Assembly (NCBI GenBank): GCA_919902765.1
Contig: CAKKRP010000091.1
Location: forward strand, 1-47,223
DNA from: Gammaproteobacteria bacterium
Lineage (GTDB): Bacteria > Pseudomonadota > Gammaproteobacteria > S012-40
DNA length: 47,223 nt
Direction: 5' to 3'
In this document: positions 41,295 to 47,223 of the stretch, piece after piece
Position numbering within the stretch: the first letter of the stretch is position 1
Layout of the letters: every line of letters starts with the position of its first letter
Notes under the pieces: model-generated
Told to the model about the DNA's origin: nothing
Database searches by the model: none
The model's input: the letters and a program-made list of their open reading frames with translations, nothing else
Program-made: the position numbers and the translations under genes

Positions 41295-44105
41295 TTACAC
41301 CACTACAACCTCAGGATGCGGTTCGCGCGCAGAATCCTCCAAGAAATCCAACGCGTTTGCGCCAAATGCGGGTAGAACCGCGCGCATTAATTTGACATTG
41401 AGGGCGTCTTTAAAATCCAACCATTGATCGCCAACGCGCATTTTGATATCCGTATTAAAAAAATAATGTCCGTACACAATTCTTTTAAATAAAAAACGGT
41501 TATAACGATAGTCGCGATTTATCTCGTTGCGCGACAGGAGTGACGTGATGTATTGACGCGACTTGCGTTCCGGCGGCAATACCGCATCGGGTATAGCGTT
41601 CAAAAAAGGCTCCAGCACGGCGGCGGAATAACCGGAGTTAAAGCGTATTTCAATATGGTTGATGCTGGTTTTAAGCAGTGCGATCATGGCATGCAGCAAG
41701 AAAAATTCGCCGATACGGTTATCGATTCGGATTAATTTTCCAAAGGCTTGCACGTCGGTATGTGCAGGCGCCAATAGCGGGTATGCTGCAGGAAATACGT
41801 TTTTTGCGTAGGCCTGATCGAGAATCGCGCGCCAGATGGCGATGTGGAAGGCGCTACGTCCATAATTATCCACGGCATCTTTATTCGCGCCCCGTTCAAG
41901 CAGGGCGCTTATCAATGGCAGATTACCGGTGCGCGCGGCCAACATCAAAGGCGTATGATTGAAGCGATTGCGGAAGTCGATGCCGTAACGTTCGCTTTCC
42001 GCTAACACGTCTTTAAAGTTTTTGCGTTCATAGGCTTGCACGTATTTAGTGATCGAGCCTATGTTCAAGTTCTTTTCCGACGGTCGATTGTAATATTGAT
42101 CCACCTTGCCGGTCAGTTTGCAATGCAGATAGGGATCATCGTAAAAATTGGCGTATTCAACGAGAATCTGATGATTCTTTCCGAAGGATTGGTGTGCGTC
42201 CAAGGTTTTCTGTTTCATCGTTAAAAACACCGGAGTGTCGATGACTTCCCACGGCACTTTCACCGTGTGCAGTAAATTGGCGCGTATCGCGTCGGCTTGT
42301 TCCTGTTTGCCTTGAAGTTCCAATTTCCGCGCTTCTTTTTGCCACTCATCCAGACTGGAATTCTGCGCTTGTAACGCTATTTGTTCCTTGGCACTGTTTA
42401 GATTCAACAAACTCAATATCGGGTGGCGGGTATCGCGCTCTACGATATATAAATTTTCCACCGCGCGGGTGATCGCCACATAAAACGCGTTAATATAAAA
42501 TTTATACGCCTCCATGGATTTGTCGGATTTATCCTTCGCGCGCGCATAGGTCAAATCGCCATGCAGGTCTTGCGCGTCAATGACACCGGTGATTTCCTGG
42601 AATTTTTCCCTCTCGGCGCTGACGATATTGAATAATACGATATTGTCATATTCCAGCCCTTTCGCCTCCTGCACGGAAAACACCAGGGGAGTGTGAAAAA
42701 CGCGCTGCGCCTCGGCTTTGTGATCGTCGCGCAATACGAGCACAGCGAAACGGGCCGATTTTCGGGTTTTATCATTCAGTTCCTTGATTACGTTGTCTTT
42801 GGCGCTTAGCAATTCCACCACGCCCGTCCGTTCGGCACGCGATTCGATCAAATAGTTGCTTTCCTGATCTATCGACCCGAAACGCGCGATTTTAATGCGC
42901 AGCAAACGGTTGGCGATATCGGTGACGGTGGACGAGTTACGATAATTATTGACCAGCAGGCGTATCAGTTGGTCGCCACGCAAGGCGTCGTCACCGTAAA
43001 ACCACGATTTAATCTTGGACCACGAAAAGAAATTGGGGTGTACGATTTGATTGGCGTCGCCGCACATCATAAACTGGCGAGTGGCGTGCAGGCTGCGCAT
43101 AATCAGCGCAAGCTGGATATTGGTGAGGTCTTGCACCTCGTCAATCACCGCGTAATCATATTTTGGTTTGCATAATTCGAGCGTATTGTGCGCGGCGATA
43201 TTGATGTCGTATAGGTTGGATTCTTTGAGCCACGCCAAGTATTTTTCAAACAAATCATACGTCAATGGGCGTTCGTCGGCGAGGAAAATCGATTGCCTGA
43301 CCCCCAACGCCAGATAGTCCGCGCGGTCAAGATAGACGTTGTCCTGCACGGCGCCGGTGAGCACGCCTTTGAATTCTTCGAATACGCGATGCGCATCGCC
43401 GAGTTTCGATTTTAACGGTTGACGGTTGTACCACCCGCGAAACTGCGGAAAATCGACTTCGCGGCCTGCAGGTACATGAATCGACTCCAGGTAGTCGCGG
43501 AAACTTAAAAAATCCACATTTTGTTTTTCATTTTCGAAGTGATTGCTATAGTAAACATTGCGTGAATTTTGTGCGAGAAAATCCGAGTGTGTGACATATA
43601 GCACATCGCCGTGGAGGAGTTTCATTTTTTCCAGCGTGAGTGCGGTTTTGCCGCTGCCGGCGGAACCGATGATGATCAGCGGAAGAGGCCATTGGTAAAT
43701 GGCGTTTTGCGCGTCATCGAAGGAGATCGCTTTGTCGAGAAAATGAAAACGCGTCCCGGCGGCGTTGACGTATTTCAATTCCGGGAGCGGCGCTTGTTTC
43801 AGATCGCCTGCGCTGATGTCTATGACCTTGTCTTCGTCGATGCGCGCGCCGCGCAAAAATCGCGACTTGTTGTAGGCGTGGTTGGCGATAACCTCCAGCG
43901 CCAACGCATAAGTTTCGTCACGGTAACGCATAAACTTCAGCAACAAGCGATTGGCGTAATCCAGCTTGACACGGTAATAATCGGTCTCGCCGAGCTTTTT
44001 CACCTCCGCCGATTTGAAATCATCCGACTCAAGAAACCGTCGCACCTTGTCGTATTGCGGTTTTAAGCCTGTGGTGTCCAGGCTGGAATACTCTAATATT
44101 TTCAA
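41295..44105 (-). CDS. RelE/ParE-like + UvrD-type helicase + ankyrin-repeat fusion protein
   Basis: A 936-residue protein of unusual architecture. Residues about 15-85 resemble a RelE/ParE toxin fold (VKKLGETDYYRVKLDYANRL, then YALALEVIANHAY). Residues about 125-560 are a superfamily I (UvrD/Rep) helicase core: Walker A GSAGSGKT (147-154), IDEVQD (321-326), GDANQ (349-353), NNYRNS (386-391), EAKGLEYDNIV (about 480-490) and FYVAITRAVENLYI (541-554). Residues about 685-770 hold at least two ankyrin-like repeats (NRFNHTPLMLAARTGNLPL, GANKDAVDNYGRSAFHIAI). The tail (to 936) is unassigned. The TTG start at 44105 has AAGGAG 11 bases upstream. The N-terminal call is a judgement from pattern. Function is unknown; a role in antiviral defence or DNA-linked toxicity is plausible. 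Confidence 0.8.
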   Translation of the reverse strand: MKILEYSSLDTTGLKPQYDKVRRFLESDDFKSAEVKKLGETDYYRVKLDYANRLLLKFMRYRDETYALALEVIANHAYNKSRFLRGARIDEDKVIDISAGDLKQAPLPELKYVNAAGTRFHFLDKAISFDDAQNAIYQWPLPLIIIGSAGSGKTALTLEKMKLLHGDVLYVTHSDFLAQNSRNVYYSNHFENEKQNVDFLSFRDYLESIHVPAGREVDFPQFRGWYNRQPLKSKLGDAHRVFEEFKGVLTGAVQDNVYLDRADYLALGVRQSIFLADERPLTYDLFEKYLAWLKESNLYDINIAAHNTLELCKPKYDYAVIDEVQDLTNIQLALIMRSLHATRQFMMCGDANQIVHPNFFSWSKIKSWFYGDDALRGDQLIRLLVNNYRNSSTVTDIANRLLRIKIARFGSIDQESNYLIESRAERTGVVELLSAKDNVIKELNDKTRKSARFAVLVLRDDHKAEAQRVFHTPLVFSVQEAKGLEYDNIVLFNIVSAEREKFQEITGVIDAQDLHGDLTYARAKDKSDKSMEAYKFYINAFYVAITRAVENLYIVERDTRHPILSLLNLNSAKEQIALQAQNSSLDEWQKEARKLELQGKQEQADAIRANLLHTVKVPWEVIDTPVFLTMKQKTLDAHQSFGKNHQILVEYANFYDDPYLHCKLTGKVDQYYNRPSEKNLNIGSITKYVQAYERKNFKDVLAESERYGIDFRNRFNHTPLMLAARTGNLPLISALLERGANKDAVDNYGRSAFHIAIWRAILDQAYAKNVFPAAYPLLAPAHTDVQAFGKLIRIDNRIGEFFLLHAMIALLKTSINHIEIRFNSGYSAAVLEPFLNAIPDAVLPPERKSRQYITSLLSRNEINRDYRYNRFLFKRIVYGHYFFNTDIKMRVGDQWLDFKDALNVKLMRAVLPAFGANALDFLEDSAREPHPEVVVV

Positions 44106-44170: not shown

Positions 44171-44338
44171 TTACAAACCGCCGGTGCCCCAACACTTTTT
44201 GAACTTCTTGCCGCTGCCGCAAGGACAGCGATCATTTCTACCGGCCTTTTCCGACGTGGCTGGGATGGATGGGTTTCGCATTGTTTCCAGATCCGAGATG
44301 TCTACTGGCATATCGGGTTCTAGTCCTAATTTCGCCAT
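44171..44338 (-). CDS. Short SEC-C motif protein, apparently shrunken
   Basis: A 55-residue protein with a C-terminal SEC-C zinc motif [16 protein letters not shown]. From the ATG at 44338 (GGGGG six bases upstream) it begins [18 protein letters not shown]. In the family I remember (PBPRA1643-type SEC-C proteins) the same MAKLG opening and the EPDxPxDISDLE segment are about 30 residues apart, so this looks like an internal in-frame deletion. The final motif position is W (KKCW) where a fourth Cys or His ligand is expected. The frame stays open up to 44431, but those upstream residues have no likeness. A remnant or a minimal functional variant are both possible. Confidence 0.55.
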
Positions 44339-44646
44339 TGACGCCCCCATCCTCGCTTGACGCGGATACGCGCAAACATAGAACACACGCCCTATGAGGT
44401 GGAATAATACCCCACTTTCGGCCCGCTTCATAATTTATCACTCACGCCAGATTCACGCTAGACATTGAATTGTTATATCTATCAAATTCATTTTTTGTGT
44501 AGCAAAAACAATGACTAATGACGTCATCTCCCATGGTCATGGTGGCGCAGCACCCCGGCCCGGTGAGAAAAACGTGAATTCATCGCTAGAAATTCCGAGG
44601 ATCATACCCCATAAATACCTTGCATATTGATGATGGCGTCACTAAA
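44339..44646. other. Intergenic region between the SEC-C and DUF4143 genes
   Basis: About 300 bases, A+T-richer than the genes around it, between two divergent genes. It should hold both promoters. A perfect ten-base palindrome ATGACGTCAT lies at 44518-44527 and CCATG/CATGG repeat arms shortly after; a weak TTCACG-16-TATATC pair lies near 44451-44478. I see no clear RNA gene. Confidence 0.4.
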
Positions 44647-45885
44647 ATGTCAGATATGTATCGTCACCGCCTACTTTCTCATCGCTTGAAACAACTTTAT
44701 GCCGCGTTTCCGGTGGTGGTGGTGAGTGGCGCGCGGCAGGTGGGTAAAACGACGCTATTGCGTCATCATTTTCCGAATCTCGATTATGTGGTATTCGATG
44801 CAAGCCTAGATCGGGAGGATGCACGACGCGAACCCGAACTGTTCCTCAAAAATCACCCGCCACCGGTCATCCTCGATGAAATTCAATACGCGCCCGAAGT
44901 CGTCGCAGCCATTAAGCGCGCGGTGGATCGTAGCGGGGCGAGGCCCGGCCAATTTCTGTTGACTGGCTCACAGCAATGGCAGGTAATGAAATCATTGGCC
45001 GAGAGCCTTGCGGGACGCGCGGCGTTTCTCGATCTTTTTGGCTTCTCGTTGCAGGAAATCAGCAATACGCAAGATTGTTGGCTCCAGCGTTGGTTGGATA
45101 CACCGCGCGAGTTTTTAACTTGGGGCAAACAAGCGCCGCGTTACCCCGGCGCGCTGCAGGAATGGTTATGGCGAGGCAGTCTGCCGCGCGCGACCGACAT
45201 CGACATCAACCTCATCCCCGATTTCTGGAACGGCTACCATCGTACTTACGTGGAACGCGATGCGAGATTAGCGGGCGGCGTGGGTGATTGGCAGGAATTC
45301 GGGCGGTTTGTCCAACTCATGAGCGCGTTGACCGCACAGGAAATCAACTATAGCCAACTCGGTCGAGAAATCGGCGTCACGCCGCAGACCGCGCGACGTT
45401 GGTTGAACATCATGACGGATACCTTTCAGTGGTTCGCGTTAGCGGCGTTTTCAGCCAACCAAACCAAACGTGTATCTGCGCGACCGAAAGGATATTTGGC
45501 CGATACTGGTTTAGCATGTTACCACGCGCAGATTTCATCGCCCATGGCGTTGGGCGGGCACCCGTTGTACGGTGCGTTATTTGAAACCGCCGTCGCGTGC
45601 GAACTTTTGAAGCAGGCCAGTACTTTTTACACCCGTCCCGCGTTTTATCACTGGCGCGCCGCAGGCGGTGCCGAAGTCGATTTGATTTTAGAACGTGATG
45701 GCGTGTTGTATCCGGTCGAAATTAAACTCACCGCAAACCCGAACCGGCGTCACGGTTCAGGCATCGACGCCTTCCGCAAGGCCTATCCGCAACGCAATAT
45801 TGCGTTAGGTGCGGTGATTTGCGCCGTGGAAGAACCGCGCTGGTTATCGGATAATATTGTGGCGATTCCTTGGAATTTGTTGTAG
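44647..45885 (+). CDS. AAA ATPase with DUF4143 C-terminal domain
   Basis: A 412-residue AAA_14/DUF4143 ATPase. It has Walker A GARQVGKTT (28-36), Walker B VILDEIQ (74-80), and the sensor motif LLTGSQQ. The C-terminal DUF4143 domain has YLADTGLACY, GALFETAVACELLKQ and a nuclease-like segment, AEVDLILERDG followed by PVEIKLT. This has the D...ExK pattern of PD-(D/E)xK nucleases. Such proteins are widespread and often lie in mobile or defence regions; their substrate is unknown. ATG at 44647 is chosen over an in-frame TTG at 44620 and an ATG at 44656 with low confidence, since no ribosome site is good. Confidence 0.88.
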   Translation: MSDMYRHRLLSHRLKQLYAAFPVVVVSGARQVGKTTLLRHHFPNLDYVVFDASLDREDARREPELFLKNHPPPVILDEIQYAPEVVAAIKRAVDRSGARPGQFLLTGSQQWQVMKSLAESLAGRAAFLDLFGFSLQEISNTQDCWLQRWLDTPREFLTWGKQAPRYPGALQEWLWRGSLPRATDIDINLIPDFWNGYHRTYVERDARLAGGVGDWQEFGRFVQLMSALTAQEINYSQLGREIGVTPQTARRWLNIMTDTFQWFALAAFSANQTKRVSARPKGYLADTGLACYHAQISSPMALGGHPLYGALFETAVACELLKQASTFYTRPAFYHWRAAGGAEVDLILERDGVLYPVEIKLTANPNRRHGSGIDAFRKAYPQRNIALGAVICAVEEPRWLSDNIVAIPWNLL

Positions 45886-45929
45886 TGTAAAGCTATAATA
45901 CAAGGGCGTGTAATGTCTGTTGGTTATCG

Positions 45930-46014
45930 CGCCTTACGTCAATACGCCTTACGCGCGTTATGATCCCAACGCCTTAAGCTGCGTAGCGTCCATGAGTTTG
46001 AACGTTGGGCCTTA
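45930..46014. repeat. Short GCCTTA repeats and inverted repeat before the DUF262 gene
   Basis: CGCCTTACG occurs at 45930 and 45945, CGCCTTAAG at 45970, and GCCTTA again at 46009. A seven-base inverted repeat (CCCAACG at 45965 and CGTTGGG at 46003) encloses the last pair. All lie in the 157 bases between the DUF4143 and DUF262 genes. They may be binding sites; the spacing is irregular. Confidence 0.35.
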
Positions 46015-46042
46015 CCCGTAACAAAACATAAGAGACGAGCTA

Positions 46043-47223
46043 ATGGAAGCGAATCCAGTCAGAATTGTTCAGTACTTTGATGGTGAAAAACAAAGTATCA
46101 TACCTCTTTTCCAGCGGCCTTATACATGGAATAAGCGGAATTGGCAGTCGTTGTGGGATGACATCATGAGCTACTACGAGGATGAGGATTTGGCTTCATC
46201 CCACTTTATGGGGGCTGTCGTATCAATCCCAGCAAAGACCGTTCCGGTCGGTGTGACGAAGCATCTTGTTATTGATGGGCAACAACGTTTAACCACGATT
46301 GCAATTGTGCTTTGTGCTCTTCGTGATAGCTGTGACGAAAGGAAATCAGATCAAATTCAAGATTACCTAGTTAATCGCCATTATGATAATTCAGAAGATC
46401 ATTTAAAGCTTTTGCCTACGCAAAGCGATCGCGCCGCATATCTTTCAATTGTGAATCGAAGACCCGAAAACCATGTAAGCAAGCATTTGATTATTAATTG
46501 CTACGAGTATTTTAAAAAAGCCATCGCAGAAAAAGATGAAAATGAACAACCAATTGATCCAGGTAGAATTCTAGATATAGTCAAGTCGCTGCTTCAGGTT
46601 GTAATGATCAATCTTGGCGAAGCAGACGACCCATACTTGATTTTCGAGAGCTTAAACTTTAAAGGCGAGCCGCTTTCTCAAGGCGATCTTGTTAGAAATT
46701 ATATTTTGATGCGATTTCGATACTCGCTTGGCGAAGGCGGGGAGCAAGAGCGCATATATAGAGAAATATGGCATCCAATGGAATCAAGGCTTGGAGAGGC
46801 TTTCGAGGATTTTTTATGGCACTACGCTATCAAAGATGGTGCCAACGTAAAAAAACCAAAAGTATATTCATCAATAAAACATAATTTTAGCGAACTAAAA
46901 ACAGCAAATGATGTGGAATTTCATATCGGGGAAATGAATAAAGCCTCAATTAACTATGTACGATTCTTAAATCCCGGAAAAGAGACTAACACCAAAATAC
47001 AGAAAGAATTGGCTCTGTTATATCGCCTTGAGGCAACGATTTCGTACCCACTTCTTCTTAAGTTATTTTCAGCCTGCGATAATAATCAATTCGATGAAGA
47101 TGTGTTGCTGAATTGTTTGCGGAATATAAATTCGCTCATGGTAAGAAGAGCAGTATGCGATGAAAAAAGAAGTGCTCTTAATAAGTTGTTTGTAGGCATT
47201 GCCTCACGTATACCAGTGGATAT
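46043..47223 (+). CDS. DUF262 (GmrSD-like) protein, cut by the window edge
   Basis: The frame runs open from the ATG at 46043 to the end of the window (393 codons) and continues beyond. The product begins with the DUF262 signatures: IPLFQRPYTW (20-29), VIDGQQRLTT (about 76-85, ParB-like nucleotide-binding motif) and later DDPYLIFESLNFKGEPLSQGDLVRNY. These are typical of the N-terminal half of GmrSD-family type IV restriction proteins and of other DUF262 proteins; an HNH nuclease half (DUF1524) would lie outside the window, if present. The gene is visibly richer in A and T than most of the window, with many AAA and GAT codons, which suggests horizontal transfer. The target and activity cannot be decided. 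Confidence 0.85.
   Translation, partial: MEANPVRIVQYFDGEKQSIIPLFQRPYTWNKRNWQSLWDDIMSYYEDEDLASSHFMGAVVSIPAKTVPVGVTKHLVIDGQQRLTTIAIVLCALRDSCDERKSDQIQDYLVNRHYDNSEDHLKLLPTQSDRAAYLSIVNRRPENHVSKHLIINCYEYFKKAIAEKDENEQPIDPGRILDIVKSLLQVVMINLGEADDPYLIFESLNFKGEPLSQGDLVRNYILMRFRYSLGEGGEQERIYREIWHPMESRLGEAFEDFLWHYAIKDGANVKKPKVYSSIKHNFSELKTANDVEFHIGEMNKASINYVRFLNPGKETNTKIQKELALLYRLEATISYPLLLKLFSACDNNQFDEDVLLNCLRNINSLMVRRAVCDEKRSALNKLFVGIASRIPVD

Follow-up and report, generated by a model that had tools for sequence, protein, structure and literature searches.

RelE-superfamily domains act on ribosomal mRNA, and in the toxin YoeB the residues R65, H83 and Y84 have a catalytic role; ParE toxins have the same fold and bind gyrase, with no cutting of RNA. 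The toxins of the YefM-YoeB, RelBE and YafQ-DinJ pairs are free proteins of 85–95 aa with the antitoxin encoded adjacent to them, whereas in Cami1 (PDB 8phj) a RelE-type domain and a sensor, namely a cyclic-oligoadenylate-binding CARF domain, reside in one polypeptide and no separate antitoxin is present. UvrD-like SF1 motors are found in the housekeeping helicases UvrD, PcrA and Rep and also in defence proteins such as GajB of Gabija and the RTasHel helicase of DRT. The two components have already been reported in fused form, since the anti-phage system ARMADA type II contains a RelE-UvrD fusion, ArmD; all four genes of this system are required for defence, and an ArmD mutant in the Walker A motif loses protection (PMC12458937).

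Here we compare with these systems a 936-aa protein in which a RelE-like domain and an SF1 motor are followed by ankyrin repeats and a further C-terminal domain. Its gene lies in a stretch of 47,223 nucleotides, called the window in the following, which is the entire contig CAKKRP010000091.1. Like Cami1, the protein combines a RelE-type domain and a candidate sensor in a single chain, the candidate in this case being the SF1 motor together with the ankyrin repeats. The features of the gene and its surroundings are as follows (positions of the window; evidence in brackets).

41295–44105, minus strand: whole gene, encoding the 936-aa protein with RelE-like, SF1 helicase, ankyrin and C-terminal domains (open reading frame, homologues, AlphaFold)
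43821–44105, minus strand: predicted RelE/YoeB-fold domain, residues 1–95 (AlphaFold, Foldseek, profile-profile comparison, conserved residues)
42438–43748, minus strand: SF1 helicase core of the UvrD/PcrA/Rep type, residues 120–556 (Pfam, motifs, Foldseek)
42036–42428, minus strand: middle helical region (linker), residues 560–690 (conserved SSLDEWQxEAxKLELQGKQEQAxAIR; AlphaFold)
41781–42023, minus strand: ankyrin part of about two repeats, residues 695–775, with Pfam Ank_2 at 705–758 (Pfam, AlphaFold)
41391–41780, minus strand: conserved C-terminal domain, residues 776–905 (motif RKKRxYISSxLSRNEV...YNRKLFxRV..GxY..NP)
44171–44431, minus strand: short open reading frame with a SEC-C zinc motif at its end, 65 bp upstream of the gene and on the same strand
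44620–45885, plus strand: AAA_14/DUF4143 ATPase (PADLOC candidate PDC-S01)
46043–47221, plus strand: DUF262/GmrSD_N protein (PADLOC Orf5 / HEC-06 models), truncated where the contig stops

Architecture of the protein and its helicase core

The gene begins with a TTG codon, 5' of which stands a Shine-Dalgarno-like AAAGGAG, and this start is supported by the homologues, since those that reach the N-terminal end begin at the same position or no more than two residues away from it, mostly with ATG. The AlphaFold model of the full-length protein is confident throughout (pLDDT 89, pTM 0.89); its best Foldseek matches in the PDB are UvrD, Rep and PcrA (E 8e-12), and a search of a viral structure library returned generic SF1 helicases only. 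The initial annotation had read the protein as a complete SF1 helicase with a toxin-like N-terminus and a C-terminal ankyrin part. The first of these points is borne out, as motifs I, II, III, IV, V and VI are all intact, namely GSAGSGKT (Walker A, 147–154), DEVQD (322–326), GDANQIVH (349–356), NYRN (387–390), EAKGLEYD (480–487) and VAITRA (543–548), and the Pfam profiles UvrD-helicase (PF00580, 1.5e-9) and UvrD_C_2 (PF13538, 4.1e-7) both score above cut-off. The ankyrin part is likewise present (Ank_2, 1.2e-8), but it comprises only about two repeats (~705–758), and the conserved domain behind it (776–905) had been overlooked. For this domain of ~130 aa, searches of Pfam and the PDB gave no convincing relative.

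Between motif IV (387) and motif V (482) lie 95 residues. The same interval measures 123 residues in ArmD and ~280 in the UvrD of E. coli and a PcrA of Virgibacillus, and the helicase is therefore compact, with no room for a 2B domain. As such, although UvrD, PcrA and Rep are the best fold matches of the full model, the protein differs from these housekeeping helicases in the missing space for 2B, in the domains added at both ends and in its sporadic, accessory distribution. The PADLOC models that match the helicase are RTasHel (2.7e-12) and GajB (2.9e-11), and with GajB and other defence UvrD-like helicases of Gabija and DRT it has the SF1 UvrD-like motor in common. Unlike in Gabija, the family carries additional RelE, ankyrin and C-terminal domains and has no GajA-type nuclease partner; no GajA ATPase/TOPRIM nuclease was found among the recurring neighbours of 80 members or in those flanking genes of the window that the scan covered.

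All enzymatic parts are under strong purifying selection. Mean pairwise identity amounts to 60% in the motor, 55.5% in the RelE part, 47% in the ankyrin part and 42% in the C-terminus, and the near-motor conservation of the RelE part argues that the latter is probably a working enzyme. Many phage sensors are hypervariable, but the ankyrin part and the C-terminal part of this family are not, which counts against a function in defence.

The N-terminal domain

Residues 1–111, folded by AlphaFold with 57 homologues, gave a model with a pLDDT of 90.3 in which the elements follow each other in the order E-H-H-E-E-E, as in the RelE fold. The top Foldseek matches of this model in the PDB are nearly all RelE-superfamily toxins (probability up to 1.00, E 3e-3 and weaker), among them YoeB/ParE 6n90, Sa2YoeB 7v6w, HP0892, E. 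coli YoeB, RelE1, YafQ, RelE and HigB2, and they also include Cami1, the CARF-RelE ribonuclease. A RelE/YoeB fold of the N-terminal domain is hence supported by the predicted structure, while the moderate Foldseek E-values (3e-3) count against certainty about its homology.

Sequence comparison by itself is no more than suggestive of this kinship. Profile searches with Pfam, NCBIfam, PADLOC and the PDB returned nothing above threshold for the domain; below threshold, ParE_like was the best Pfam match (E 0.057 for the window protein, 0.01 for a relative), followed by YoeB. When a profile of the domain was run on loci that carry YoeB, the YoeB/Txe frames ranked above nearly all other open reading frames. 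An hhalign comparison of a narrow alignment with YoeB was not significant (E 0.036, probability 1.4%), whereas the same comparison with three distant paralogues added reached E 2e-4 and a probability of 46%, while the control, an antitoxin with no relation to the domain, gave E 0.027 and 1.8%; as a benchmark, the RelE-like domain of ArmD was compared with this YoeB profile and scored E 2e-5 and 77%. Taken with the confident model and its PDB matches, this agrees with the earlier proposal of a RelE/ParE-like N-terminus, for which a comparison of the predicted fold with RelE, ParE and HigB had been put forward as the check; the predicted fold resembles theirs, and the proposal withstood this check.

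Among the 57 homologues K37, Y44, R53, E71, H76, Y78, S81 and F83 are invariant, and R53, H76 and Y78 are also kept in distant paralogues that are 18–23% identical in this domain. The likeness to the YoeB/Txe, RelBE and YafQ-DinJ toxins extends from the fold to an aligned arginine in strand 3 and a His/Tyr where the last strand ends: in the alignment R53 falls on R65 of YoeB, and by eye H76/Y78 stand at the C-terminal His-Tyr of YoeB (H83/Y84). The position of the catalytic glutamate of YoeB is occupied by lysines. From these residues we infer that R53, H76 and Y78 are probably catalytic rather than merely structural.

It is at this point that a different reading has to be considered, namely that the protein is a helicase for plasmid or genome maintenance in which the RelE/ParE-like domain merely binds a target such as gyrase or DNA and is no nuclease. 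ParE toxins bind gyrase with this very fold, ParE_like is the name given most often by the weak Pfam matches, and both the UvrD/PcrA-type motor and the plasmid copies described below would suit such a task. The survival of R53, H76 and Y78 at 18–23% identity, in line with R65/H83/Y84 of YoeB, speaks against a mere binding module, and we regard this explanation as distinctly unlikely.

When the N-terminal domain alone was searched for in 398 phylum genomes, every strong match lay within a long frame and none was free-standing; two of these frames were shorter (618 and 689 aa), and the one exception was a marginal match (E 0.007). The domain is therefore not a free toxin that was captured once.

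Comparison with ArmD

For comparison with ArmD we used the sequence of E. coli ATCC 8739 (NC_010468.1, 4239557–4241671). In both proteins a RelE-like domain at the N-terminus precedes a UvrD/GajB-like SF1 motor in which motifs IV and V stand close together, and both are located on mobile islands and plasmids. The motors are 24% identical over 305 aligned positions (E 1e-9). ArmD, on the other hand, has 704 aa and neither ankyrin repeats nor the C-terminal domain, both of which are present in the 936-aa protein; its RelE domain is separated from Walker A by ~160 aa instead of 50; and it works together with ArmA, ArmB and ArmC, while the family described here has no constant partner.

The common domain order and the similarity of the motors could be taken to mean that the gene encodes the ArmD equivalent of an ARMADA-like multi-gene system. 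In a tree of the helicases, however, the family and the paralogues of one genome (G041, see below) split from all ArmD-like and UvrD/PcrA rows with 100/100 support, and no homologues of ArmB or ArmC were found in the window or in 83 homologue loci (1.28 Mb). A search for ArmA in the same loci gave four weak matches, spread over three loci, which is what generic SNF2 helicases would be expected to give. Membership in ARMADA was rejected on account of the separate helicase clade and the missing ArmB and ArmC in the searched loci, and the idea of such a subunit is largely refuted and can hardly be credited. By analogy, the family may nevertheless work like ArmD.

The searches also returned proteins close to ArmD itself. 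At three loci (L171, L173, L176), ArmD-like RelE-UvrD proteins have as neighbour a restriction-modification pair, a phospholipase D-like gene, or a DEAD/DEAH helicase gene whose far side lacks the rest of ARMADA; a complete ARMADA operon thus does not seem to be the only setting of ArmD-type helicases. On a plasmid of Streptomyces sp. Alt3 (L175:2998-5058), a protein with the annotation serine/threonine kinase matches at its start the first ~245 residues of ArmD, and the module of RelE-like domain and linker may be combined with other enzymes as well.

Distribution and mobility

A scan of GTDB genomes for relatives of the 936-aa protein yielded at least 573 loci, and the best 80 of these cover essentially the whole query at 46–51% identity. 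These 80 belong to the Pseudomonadota, Nitrospirota, Bacteroidota, Kiritimatiellota, Lentisphaerota, Thermodesulfobacteriota, Myxococcota, Bacillota and other phyla. The parts, initially described as rarely seen together, are hence those of a conserved family, and a fusion of the first two kinds of part is already published for ArmD (PMC12458937). The family is distinct from that fusion, large and uncharacterised. In the literature, no fusion of RelE, UvrD and ankyrin parts was found described, although the coverage of this search is incomplete and so gives no proof of novelty.

The occurrence of the gene is sporadic: it is present in 17 of the 369 class genomes, and of 11 relatives listed for the same family only one has it; a relative of the same genus also lacks it. 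Copies are found on plasmids of Methylosinus, Deinococcus, Piscirickettsia, E. coli and Shigella, and no match to the family exists among 50,697 phage records that would point to a phage origin. The cluster pcnB-folK-panB-panC(-panD) of related genomes contains no helicase, SEC-C, AAA/DUF4143 or DUF262 genes, and the absence of these four genes from the pan locus of the relatives identifies them as an accessory insertion after panD in the window. Overall, the family is a sporadic, accessory and mobile single-gene element that is inherited as one unit.

A full-length homologue (~44% identical) is widespread on large plasmids of Shigella and E. coli, with 103 Shigella plasmid records; the E. coli copy that was inspected is flanked by genes on the virK/lpxM side and by insertion sequences, and the homologue is annotated merely as a UvrD-helicase domain protein. 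One genome (G041; loci L017, L020 and L117) encodes three diverged paralogues with the RelE-like and SF1 module, whose C-terminal parts are longer (frames of 1143 to 1664 aa) and of which two have recognisable ankyrin repeats. The trio suggests an expansion or an effector-like use.

Genomic neighbourhood

The DUF262 gene to which the initial annotation had pointed as part of an accessory-looking region is indeed there, as a GmrSD_N gene truncated at the contig end, and together with the DUF4143 ATPase gene it forms an accessory segment (44620–47221). The short SEC-C open reading frame was rejected as a partner, as it does not recur beside homologues and is probably not part of the system.

To look for partners, all open reading frames of at least 50 aa within 6 kb of 80 members were clustered. 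No neighbour was constant among these members, and the largest cluster, with members at 10 loci and at varying distances from the gene, seems to consist of generic ABC-transporter ATPases. The adjacent genes were on the same strand in 37/70 and 38/70 cases, as by chance. With neither a recurring neighbour nor a preferred flanking orientation, the gene is therefore autonomous and has no antitoxin partner; no cognate antitoxin gene, as in type II toxin-antitoxin pairs, recurs within 6 kb of the 80 members. This sets it apart from YefM-YoeB, RelBE and YafQ-DinJ, where the toxin is a protein of its own and not a domain of a 936-aa chain. The genome from which the window stems (L120, G000:C122) also has an ordinary YefM-YoeB toxin-antitoxin pair.

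One could speculate that the gene is a selfish, addiction-type element that combines toxin and antidote in one protein and so keeps plasmids or islands stable. The plasmid copies and the toxin fold would agree with this, yet a separate, less stable antidote gene is missing and the whole enzyme is strongly conserved, which makes this explanation very improbable.

As to the suspected defence context, for which homologues and their neighbours had been named as the test, the outcome is divided: the family is accessory and mobile and has a few defence genes nearby, but many of its neighbours are housekeeping genes and none of them recurs as a partner. The defence-type neighbours comprise genes for Cas1, RmrA, ZorC, AbiEi, DUF262 and DUF4143 proteins, and in the window itself the gene adjoins the PDC-S01 and DUF262 genes. 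The number of PADLOC models hit was 81 and 99 in 128 and 126 neighbour genes, compared with 43 in 127 control genes, which were arbitrary genes mostly from family-carrying genomes, the counts being of models and not of proteins. Many of the models hit near members are generic SNF2 or methyltransferase models. The enrichment is weak and not decisive, because models were counted and several of them are generic, and the family is thus weakly linked to defence genes.

The housekeeping neighbours, among them gyrA, aconitase and glutamine synthetase, raise the question whether the protein serves its host. It could act in quality control of RNA or translation, with the RelE-like domain binding or cutting mRNA at stalled ribosomes and the SF1 motor pulling the mRNA or remodelling the complex, in a logic (not a homology) as in Upf1-type decay or the ribosome rescue by HrpA/SmrB. 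The general action of RelE-superfamily domains on ribosomal mRNA, the strong purifying selection on the enzymatic parts, the lack of hypervariability in the ankyrin part and the many copies that stand singly amid housekeeping genes are all in keeping with this. A core process, however, is ill-suited to a gene found in only 17 of 369 class genomes and on plasmids, and the helicase resembles the DNA-translocating UvrD, PcrA and Rep, so that we consider such a function unlikely.

Proposed function and significance

From our point of view, the protein is best read as a single-gene, auto-inhibited RelE-type ribonuclease that is gated by its motor and serves most likely in defence, a reading to which we tentatively assign a probability of about 0.42. 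The N-terminal domain would be a RelE-type ribonuclease that cuts mRNA or other RNA, with R53, H76, Y78 and the lysines K36/K37 as its probable active residues. The motor, ankyrin and C-terminal modules would keep this nuclease inactive and thereby replace the antitoxin of a RelBE or YefM-YoeB pair; the initially proposed control of the toxin domain by the helicase fits the absence of any antitoxin. Release could be triggered when the SF1 core engages foreign or aberrant nucleic acid with ATP, or when the ankyrin part binds a protein. The most likely purpose would be to defend the cell against phages or other mobile elements, a role that the ArmD-containing ARMADA type II has been shown to have, and by this analogy a defence role of the family is plausible.

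A more far-reaching proposal, which we hold to be doubtful, is that the gene represents the founding family of one-gene immune or stress effectors, distinct from ArmD, present in hundreds of species of many phyla and never described, in which the SF1 motor (for DNA or RNA) and the ankyrin repeats would act as built-in antitoxin and trigger for a RelE-type ribonuclease.

If the proposed function is true, a widespread family that goes by the names 'AAA family ATPase' or 'UvrD-helicase domain-containing protein' would consist of nucleic-acid-triggered ribonucleases that need no separate antitoxin. An SF1 motor would then join the antitoxin and the CARF domain as the known ways to control RelE nucleases, and ArmD of ARMADA would be tied to a larger, stand-alone class. 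It would further account for a conserved gene that many plasmids carry as cargo.
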